Program-made: the position numbers and the translations under genes
The notes under the pieces: generated by a model
Told to the model about the DNA's origin: nothing
What the model saw: the letters and a program-made list of their open reading frames with translations, nothing else
The model's database searches: none
Assembly: GCA_004299705.1 (NCBI GenBank)
Contig: SCQS01000061.1
Location: 1 to 32,419, forward strand
Length of the DNA stretch: 32,419 nt
Origin: Rhodanobacteraceae bacterium
GTDB lineage: Bacteria > Pseudomonadota > Gammaproteobacteria > Xanthomonadales > Rhodanobacteraceae
Direction of reading: 5' to 3'
Shown here: positions 8,204-10,007 of the stretch, one piece after another
Layout of the letters: the number at the start of each line of letters is the position of its first letter
How positions within the stretch are numbered: the first letter of the stretch is position 1

Positions 8204-8695
8204 ATGGCACGTGGCGTCAACAAGGTCATCCTGATCGGCAATCTGGGCGCGGACCCCGACACGCGCTACAGCGCGTCCGGCACCGCGATGTGCACGGTCA
8301 GCCTCGCCACTTCGGAAAGCTGGAAGGACAAGCAGACCGGCGAAATGCAGGATCGCACCGAGTGGCACCGGGTGAAGTTCTTCGGCAAGCTGGCCGAAAT
8401 CGCCGGCGAGTACCTGAAGAAGGGTCGGCAGGTGTACATCGAAGGGTCGATCCGCAGCAGCAAGTACACCGACAAGGAAGGCGTGGAACGCTGGAGCACC
8501 GACATCATCGCCAACAACATGCAGATGCTGGGTGGCCCCGGCGACAACGAATCGCGCGGCGAGGGTGGTGGCGGCTACCGCCAGCGTGCCCCGCAGCAGG
8601 GGCGGCCCTCCGGCGCACCGTCGGGTGGTGCATCACGCGCCCCCGAACCGCCGCCGCCGGACAACGGCTTCGAGGACGACGATATTCCGTTCTAG
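8204..8695 (+). CDS. ssb: Single-stranded DNA-binding protein
   Basis: This 163-residue protein coats single-stranded DNA in replication, repair and recombination. The N-terminal OB fold (about residues 1-112) starts [21 protein letters not shown] Gly/Gln/Arg/Pro-rich linker follows, and the acidic tip DDDIPF is the docking site for partner proteins. I chose the ATG at 8204 over the TTG at 8198 because GAGGG lies 7 bases upstream and MARGVNK is the family start. The TAG stop lies within the CTAG that forms the left target-site copy of the MITE-like element. Before insertion this CTAG would also have been the stop of the convergent isomerase gene. Confidence 0.97.
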
Positions 8696-8820
8696 GGGAA
8701 CTCTGATCAATCCTGCTGTTCGCCCTTCGATACCTCAGGGCGAACGGATAAGTATTTGATCCCGTTCGTGGTGAGGTATCGAACCACGAACAGCACAAAG
8801 CGAAATCAGAGGTTCCCTAG
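8692..8820. mobile_element. MITE-like element, copy 2, flanked by CTAG duplication
   Basis: A 121-base element (8696-8816) lies between two copies of CTAG (8692-8695 and 8817-8820). Its ends are imperfect inverted repeats: GGGAACTCTGAT on the left and GGAACCTCTGAT read inward from the right. The interior holds the two-hairpin core. The first stem is GTTCGCCCT/AGGGCGAAC at 8718-8745 and the second is GTTCGTGG/CCACGAAC at 8764-8791. The two loops are complementary (TCGATACCTC and GAGGTATCGA). There is no coding capacity. A CTAG target duplication is typical of IS5-family transposition (YTAR targets), so this is probably moved in trans by such a transposase. No transposase is in the window. Confidence 0.75.
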
Positions 8821-10007
8821 ACCGGACCAGCGACGACGTTGAGCACTTCGTAACACGCGCCCATGTTGTGGTAATCGGTCTTGCCGGCGTCGCTTTTCTC
8901 GTCGCTGTACTTGCGGCCGTCGCGGGTGAGGATGCGATACCAGCCACCGTGTTCGTGATCGACCAAGTGTTCCCACGCGTAGGTCCACAGGCGCCGGTAC
9001 CAGTCCCAATACTTTTGCTCGCCGGTGCGGTCGGCCAGCAGCGCCGCGCAGGCCAGTGATTCGGCCTGCACCCAGTGGTACTTGTCCGCATCGCAAATCG
9101 AACCGTCCGGTGCAAAGCCGTAGCACAGACCGCCGTATTGCGCGTCCCATGCGCGCACGACCGCGCTGTCGAACAGATGCCGCGCGGTCGGCAGCAACCA
9201 ATCCGCGTCGACGTGGCGACCGAGGATCAGCAGCAGCTTGGCCCACTCGGTCTGGTGGCCGGGCTGGAATCCCCACGGGCGAAACAGATCCTTGGGATTG
9301 TCCTTGTGGTATTCCCAGTCGATGTTCCAGTGCGCATCGTAGTGTTCCCACACCAGGCCGTCGGCCTTGGCAGCCTGCCGTCGGGTCATGTTGTCGGCCA
9401 GCGTGTACGCGCGGTCGAGCCAGCGTTGCTCACGGCTTGCCTCGAACGCGGTCAGCATCGCCTCGCACATGTGCATGTTGGCGTTCTGGCCGCGGTAGTC
9501 CGAGAAGTGCCACGCCGCATCTGCCTCGTCGCGATACAGGCCGTACTCCGCGTCCCAGTAGCGCTGCTCCAGCGTGTCCCAATGCGCGTCCATCCACGCG
9601 GCGGCTTCGTCCACGCCGGCCATGCGCGCTTGTGAGTACGCGACCAGCACGAACGCCGCACCGTAGCAATGGTTGGTGGTGTCTTCCGGCTTGCCGTCGC
9701 GCAGGAACCAGTGGTAACCGCCGGTCGCGGGGTTCAGGTGCGCGTCGCGGATGAAGGCGACGCAGTGGCGCACGCCGTCGAGGTATTCCTGTCCGCCGAA
9801 GTGGCGCGCGACCATCGCGTAGTCGAACACGAAGCGCGCGCTGCTGACCAGGTGGCGATGCACGCGGTCGTAGATCGTGCCGTCGTCCTTGTAATAGTGG
9901 AAGCAGCCGCCGGCGGGGTCGAGGCAATGCGGATGGTAGAACGCCATCGTGGCGCGGATGTGCTGGCGCAGGAAGTCGGGGGAACGAAAATCAGGCAAGG
10001 CGGTCAT
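8817..10007 (-). CDS. AGE-family sugar epimerase/isomerase, probable D-mannose isomerase
   Basis: This 396-residue cytoplasmic (alpha/alpha)6-barrel protein belongs to the N-acylglucosamine 2-epimerase superfamily. The active-site histidines and acid of the YihS/mannose-isomerase branch are visible: NMHMCEA with His179, GHQTEW with His251 and Glu254, and DYHNMGACYE with a His near 380. The neighbouring fructokinase, sugar transporter and GH92 mannosidase suggest that it converts mannose to fructose. Mannobiose or N-acyl-glucosamine epimerase activity cannot be excluded from sequence alone. The start at 10007 overlaps the fructokinase stop as ATGA, so it is the last gene of a translationally coupled operon. 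Its TAG stop lies in the right CTAG copy of the MITE-like element, and its length is normal. Confidence 0.9.
   Translation of the reverse strand: MTALPDFRSPDFLRQHIRATMAFYHPHCLDPAGGCFHYYKDDGTIYDRVHRHLVSSARFVFDYAMVARHFGGQEYLDGVRHCVAFIRDAHLNPATGGYHWFLRDGKPEDTTNHCYGAAFVLVAYSQARMAGVDEAAAWMDAHWDTLEQRYWDAEYGLYRDEADAAWHFSDYRGQNANMHMCEAMLTAFEASREQRWLDRAYTLADNMTRRQAAKADGLVWEHYDAHWNIDWEYHKDNPKDLFRPWGFQPGHQTEWAKLLLILGRHVDADWLLPTARHLFDSAVVRAWDAQYGGLCYGFAPDGSICDADKYHWVQAESLACAALLADRTGEQKYWDWYRRLWTYAWEHLVDHEHGGWYRILTRDGRKYSDEKSDAGKTDYHNMGACYEVLNVVAGPV

Follow-up and report, generated by a model that had tools for sequence, protein, structure and literature searches.

The 121 bp that separate ssb from the convergent GlcNAc 2-epimerase family gene are likely a non-autonomous IS5-type MITE that inserted into a single CTAG, which was at that time the stop of both genes. 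The observations behind this reading are the element itself, the CTAGs flanking it, the reading frames, the IS5-type ends and the 4-bp duplications of related elements. Considering that CTAG is its own reverse complement, one such target could have ended both genes, with a four-base overlap between them. Duplication of this 4-bp target would have left an intact CTAG on each side, and neither gene would have lost its TAG or changed in length. We regard the insertion as an instance of a wider phenomenon, namely that stop codons are among the YTAR targets.

The ssb-epimerase junction and the element within it

The features of the junction, which lies in a stretch of 32,419 bases analysed as a whole (the window), are collected in table 1. 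The 3' end of ssb reads ...GTTC TAG, with TAG at 8693-8695, and the minus-strand epimerase gene ends with ...GGTC TAG, with TAG at 8819-8817. The original prediction had named these two endings (TTC TAG for ssb, GTC TAG for a convergent isomerase) and an inserted element of 121 bases with inverted ends and CTAG on either side. Both stops are read as described, the genes match the SSB and epimerase profiles PF00436 and PF07221, and the coordinates (the two CTAGs are exactly 121 bases apart) and the comparison of the ends bear out the element. Its location was also given correctly, but the boundaries 8685-8825 were loose, as the element together with both duplications occupies 8692-8820.

Table 1. 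Coordinates of the features at the ssb-epimerase junction (positions in the window).
Feature	Position	Strand	Evidence or remark
ssb	8204..8695	+	PF00436 SSB, E 2.6e-37; protein ends DDDIPF-TAG, TAG within left CTAG
Left CTAG: ssb stop, one copy of the target duplication	8692..8695	.	sequence read; congener IS duplications 8/8
IS5-type MITE, 121 bp (assigned from sequence)	8696..8816	.	ends, fold, copies, congener IS
Left terminal inverted repeat GGGAACTCTGATCAA	8696..8710	+	
REP-like hairpin A, CTGTTCGCCCTTCGATACCTCAGGGCGAACGG	8716..8747	+	read from sequence; recurs in genome
REP-like hairpin B, CCGTTCGTGGTGAGGTATCGAACCACGAACAG, loop motif inverted relative to A	8762..8793	+	read from sequence; recurs in genome
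Right terminal inverted repeat, reading inward GGAACCTCTGATTTC	8802..8816	-	
Right CTAG: epimerase stop, other copy of the target duplication	8817..8820	.	epimerase on minus strand
GlcNAc 2-epimerase family gene, ending ...VVAGPV-TAG	8817..10007	-	PF07221, E 7e-112

The element carries no transposase gene. Its ends are the inverted repeats GGGAACTCTGATC and GGAACCTCTGATT, in which 10 of the 16 outermost bases are identical without gaps, and its interior consists of two inverted REP-like hairpins (A and B). As a single strand the 121 bases form a strong hairpin, with a folding energy of -36.6 kcal/mol (z -8.4) that none of 200 shuffled sequences equalled. Both CTAG copies serve as stops and both are intact. 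The C-terminal end of the ssb protein is conserved among congeners; the tail of the epimerase (AGPV) differs from those of the 10 others compared. CTAG occurs nine times in the window, and two of these nine are the exact flanks of the element. Base composition would predict 106 occurrences, about 12-fold more than observed, and a Markov estimate 20. A simple scan for intrinsic terminators gave no site on the element and a weak one within the epimerase gene (8875-8887), and a role of the element as terminator is therefore speculative.

The family of the element was recognised from a congener (G015, a single-contig genome), in which eight pairs of ends enclose a 1186-bp insertion sequence with the ends GGAACGTCTGATTT and GGAAGGTCTGAACT. 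The 327-amino-acid transposase, identical in all eight copies, is placed in the IS5 family by NF033581 (339 bits, where the cut-off is 140; E 2e-101) and also matches PF01609 and PF05598. All eight copies have matching 4-bp flanks (CTAA six times, CTAG and CAAG once each), and seven of the eight flanks are YTAR, given in PMC10359306 as the duplication motif of IS5; for IS5 of E. coli, PMC11677980 gives C(A/T)A(G/A). The ends of both the window element and the G015 insertion sequence contain GGAANNTCTGA, and the boundaries of the two coincide when measured from the conserved TCTG. Since it shares these ends and boundaries with an insertion sequence that makes 4-bp duplications, the window element is, on sequence grounds, an IS5-type MITE whose target duplication is CTAG, in agreement with the IS5-type insertion proposed at the outset. 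It resembles IS5 family insertion sequences in its ends, which are those of the autonomous congener copy, and in its YTAR-type 4-bp duplication (PMC10359306, PMC11677980), but differs from them in lacking a transposase gene, in the REP-like doublet of its interior and in the absence of a matching transposase from the genome. The transposase of the G015 type had no match in the element's own genome, and outside G015 only a fragment in G001 matched; a search of the own genome with the PF13751 profile was likewise negative. The element would have been inserted in trans by an IS5-family transposase that now has no match in this genome but is present in a congener. In G015 two IS5-type elements also stand in tandem with one CTAA common to both (L167).

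It could be argued that no transposition took place, CTAG being part of a repeat into which the two genes grew, considering that CTAG extends the terminal inverted repeat and that a long hairpin forms. We regard this as hardly credible: related elements are flanked by direct, non-palindromic repeats such as CTAA/CTAA, TTAG/TTAG, CAAG/CAAG or TGAG/TGAG, which contradicts a CTAG intrinsic to the repeat.

The proposed ancestral stop and the junction in relatives

Without the element and one CTAG, the junction reads GTTCTAGACC, where each strand has a TAG, one closing ssb and the other the epimerase gene. If a simple insertion made both CTAGs, the earlier sequence was a shared single CTAG, and the junction before insertion, common to both genes, would have been TTCTAGACC. 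Each of the present CTAGs provides the TAG of one gene, as expected from the claim that target duplication rebuilt a stop on each side. The claim of an ancestral CTAG common to both genes is implied by simple insertion, but an empty site of the junction was not found among the 16 genomes of the genus (own included; mostly drafts).

The prediction had further been that relatives without the element would show one CTAG shared by both genes, and that CTAG would be present at all ends of other copies. No single-CTAG site was seen at this junction, the only relative seen with ssb and the epimerase gene adjacent (G015) has two separate stops (TAA and TGA, with 68 bases between them that include a hairpin), and other copies of the element carry other or decayed flanks. 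Separate stops in an adjacent-gene relative and copies without a CTAG duplication had both been named beforehand as grounds for refutation, and formally both are present. They do not refute the proposed history, because the relatives are too diverged at this locus, where other genes lie between ssb and the epimerase gene or the two genes are on different contigs.

The ssb gene was matched in all 16 genomes and the epimerase gene in 11 of 16 (own included in both counts), and both are on one contig in seven other genomes (G001, G005, G008, G009, G012, G014 and G015). The gene convergent on ssb is a GH92 gene in G012 and G014 and a GH47 gene in G005; in G008 a similar-looking gene stops 13 bases short of the ssb stop, and in G001 ssb and a convergent PF00230 (MIP) gene end in one common CTAG (L052 1498-1501). 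Considering that in most same-contig relatives other genes intervene or converge on ssb, the tail-to-tail contact of ssb and the epimerase gene is probably derived, and it may have arisen through loss of the genes lying between them in relatives.

The same arrangement allows a different history, in which two copies of the MITE, one at the ssb stop and one at the epimerase stop, recombined and the middle was deleted, so that the stop was never common. In all same-contig relatives except G015 other genes lie between the two, and these were therefore probably lost in the own lineage; two separate insertions at stops are possible since MITE ends often abut stops, and in G006 REP-like palindromes of a related kind lie just behind the stop of the epimerase gene. 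On the other hand, the 4-mer is identical on both flanks, which two independent insertions would produce only by coincidence, and no copy of the element was present behind ssb or the epimerase gene in the congener stretches inspected (330-400 bases). Recombination between two copies is therefore unlikely, and insertion into one shared stop is the preferred reading.

The ssb stop itself varies in the genus. In the 14 other readable genomes (the gene in G011 is cut by a contig end) it is TAG in four, TAA in three and TGA in seven, and it forms YTAR in seven of the 14, with Y supplied by the last codon TTC (Phe). Overlaps of four nucleotides through a CTAG stop were found in two of 52 called convergent pairs, one of them at the ssb stop in G001. 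The other pair with one common CTAG, which has no element, lies in the own genome (L020 2728-2731, contig C63). Convergent overlaps of four nucleotides through CTAA, TTAA, CTAG or TTAG are a class described in PMC2174442, and the pre-insertion state proposed here would be exactly of this class, except that the overlap has been split by a mobile element. Two further observations concern ssb: in G006 units of about 109 bases form a tandem array directly behind it (L046), and the own genome contains a second, diverged ssb gene (L060, C5:1361-1900).

A second case in which a stop is located at each end of a MITE between convergent genes was found in G015 (L171). Here an 81-bp MITE lies between a methyltransferase-like gene ending with CTAG and a GNAT gene ending with CTAA. 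The right end had been entered one base too far in the tally of ends, and CTAA was read by eye. The gene pair is convergent in all 11 fetched relatives, where the element is absent and the last aligned codons are 12 to 75 bases apart, and in none of the 11 was a stop YTAR common to both genes seen (by eye). The GNAT protein aligns to within one residue of its end in 11/11 relatives and its partner to within five in 9/11; since both proteins align almost to their ends, the gene ends in G015 are, as far as sequence tells, near the native ones. By analogy, the common CTAG at the ssb stop in G001 and the two stops of L171 lend indirect support to the shared-stop history.

Stop codons as insertion sites

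The IS5 target YTAR contains TAA or TAG, and we propose as a general rule that an insertion in a stop of the form NNY-TAR would rebuild the stop and be tolerated. Of the 30 MITE ends whose YTAR flank is intact, 20 coincide exactly with stops of called genes, against 1 of 40 MITE ends without such a flank and 1 of 16 IS ends. The coding frame leading into an element is the stop frame at 16 of 17 MITE ends (two of the 16 being the two ends of the window element) and at 1 of 4 IS ends, counting ends with at most one mismatch whose best frame is open for at least 100 codons, by which an IS end with 93 codons was left out. IS copies have identical interiors and collapse to one event, and the IS figures are therefore given per end. 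Also abutting stops, outside the 20 of 30, are L080 (TGAG/TGAG, stop TGA), L093 (TAA), L006 and L008. Genes were called by a simple ORF caller scored by the codon usage of 19 window genes; a Pfam comparison of 19 genes that abut elements or have a stop in common gave a family match at E 0.001 for every one, for the left gene of L171 only below the curated cut-offs.

Counted as events, 20 of 48 MITE insertions are at stops (p 5e-5 and 0.0015 against two backgrounds; events in different genomes may partly share descent). The backgrounds are 27 of 159 non-genic YTAR sites that are stops in the same loci, with element flanks excluded, and 10 of 46 or 7 of 34 in loci fetched for other reasons. YTAR is rare in the examined loci, and stops make up 17-22% of its non-genic occurrences. 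The pattern used to search for ends contained TAG, which enriches copies whose TAG is kept by selection; the excess of 20/48 is not taken at face value, because maintained copies are over-represented in it. Among events with a perfect terminal repeat, 9 of 30 are at stops (one-sided p 0.06 and 0.19, Fisher 0.13), a share not clearly above the background.

These counts also bear on the idea of active targeting, in which either the transposase or the gene-end DNA would favour stops beyond the YTAR motif. The 20 of 30 intact-YTAR ends, the 20 of 48 events and the 16 of 17 stop frames are what such a preference would produce, but the TAG in the search pattern favours copies kept by selection, the perfect-repeat events stand at 9/30 against 27/159 or 10/46, and IS copies are at stops at only one of 16 ends; active targeting is therefore quite improbable. 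The economical reading is that tolerated insertion suffices for the association with stops: selection would act as a sieve, by which YTAR insertions within genes are lost and those in stops survive as the duplication rebuilds the stop. In many stop-abutting elements the flank copy on the far side is altered (for example TTAG stop/TTGG and CTAG stop/CTGG), as expected if only the copy serving as stop is kept, and the TAG in the pattern also favours such pairs. No description of IS5-type insertion at stops was found among the titles and passages listed by the literature searches, and the print record may still hold one.

Two consequences would follow from this rule. First, a transposon that duplicates a stop-containing target can enter the last codon of one gene, or of two, without loss, and gene ends are therefore natural harbours for such transposons; the rule yields a prediction of the sites at which other GC-rich genomes retain IS5-type elements. 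Second, the flank copy serving as stop should stay while the other decays, which many elements here fit. The RUP and BOX elements of pneumococcus, as described in PMC3049150, are likewise short, with paired ends and a strong fold, and are over-represented between convergent genes; the window element differs in its IS5-type ends and its 4-bp target containing a stop, whereas the ends of RUP resemble an IS630 element.

Relatives of the element and the palindromes they carry

The core of the element is repeated in the own genome, with 33 BLAST matches, some of which count a single site twice, by its two halves or its two strands; a strict scan of the fetched loci distinguished 11 core doublets. 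The own genome contains a single exact copy of the 12-base right end GGGAACCTCTGA, and the exact right-end pattern was found in one stretch across the GTDB collection. The end motif scores at least 8/10 at 5 of the 22 flanks of the 11 doublets (two of the five belong to the window element), compared with 0.55% of control segments; in view of this difference some of the other doublets probably derive by decay from complete elements. In the two other copies of the own genome with both ends recognisable (L002 and L006), matching flanks are absent (by eye). With at most one mismatch, the end pattern gave 61 matches in 10 of the 16 genomes, and a reversed control gave none. Paired MITE relatives within the genus measure 81-264 bp, and the flanks match perfectly in 4 of 27 paired events (CTAG, TGAG, TTAG and CTTG) and differ in the remainder, flank similarity having been used as a tie-breaker in the pairing, which is doubtful for L201. 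A family-wide BLAST search with the copy of a congener matched 7 of 233 genomes at E 1e-8, and matches near full length, with at most three candidates scored per genome, were confined to the own genome and G006. In the alignment, 4 of 26 predicted pairs show two-sided changes.

The palindromes between the ends are of several kinds. Ends of one class (GGAANNTCTGATCAA / GGAANNTCTGATTT) surround the GTTCG doublet in G000 and G006; in G013 and G014 the palindromes between them are of the CGTCATTCC or CGTCATCCC type, and G008 has yet another hairpin there. Ends that have the outer motif in common with this class but differ in their inner bases surround a CGTC palindrome in G015 and, in G003, G007 and G008, additional hairpins. 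The bases just inside the end motif thus form at least two classes, and the ends are related, not identical. CGTC palindromes lie between end motifs in G013, G014 and G015, in a survey whose loci were chosen for having the ends. In the fetched loci 27 of 39 CGTC arms score at most 7 for the end motif, and most are without a clear adjoining end. That CGTC-type palindromes are carried by IS5-type ends here is suggestive; that such ends are a general carrier for unrelated REP-class palindromes in the genus is a tentative idea, which we hold to be rather doubtful.

A REPIN is a REP doublet mobilised by a RAYT. The window element has the two inverted REP palindromes, and the same REP flanking a RAYT gene was not found in the genome. 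An origin of the core from a RAYT was considered and rejected, as the core repeat is absent within about 1.5 kb of the three PF01797 (Y1_Tnp) loci of the genome (at most two mismatches). Like the REP doublets and REPINs described in PMC3733652, the element contains two inverted palindromes able to form one large hairpin; unlike REPINs mobilised by RAYTs, it is bounded by IS5-type ends and its core is not near the Y1_Tnp loci. According to PMC3733652 (2013), CGTC repeats are apparently without a dedicated transposase, and their movement by others is posed there as a question. The combination of IS5-type ends with REP-class palindromes bears on how palindromes without a dedicated transposase spread. 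If IS5-type ends do act as carriers, they would give CGTC-type repeats the mobiliser missing from that 2013 survey, the stop-containing YTAR target would explain REP-class palindromes exactly at gene ends, and palindromes at such places could act as terminators between convergent genes.

The window contains a second REP-like doublet (L005, 2478-2566), which has a decayed left end and is located just upstream of the start of a minus-strand gene. A doublet of G006 (L077) lies at apparently the same site, and this insertion may predate the split of the two genomes.
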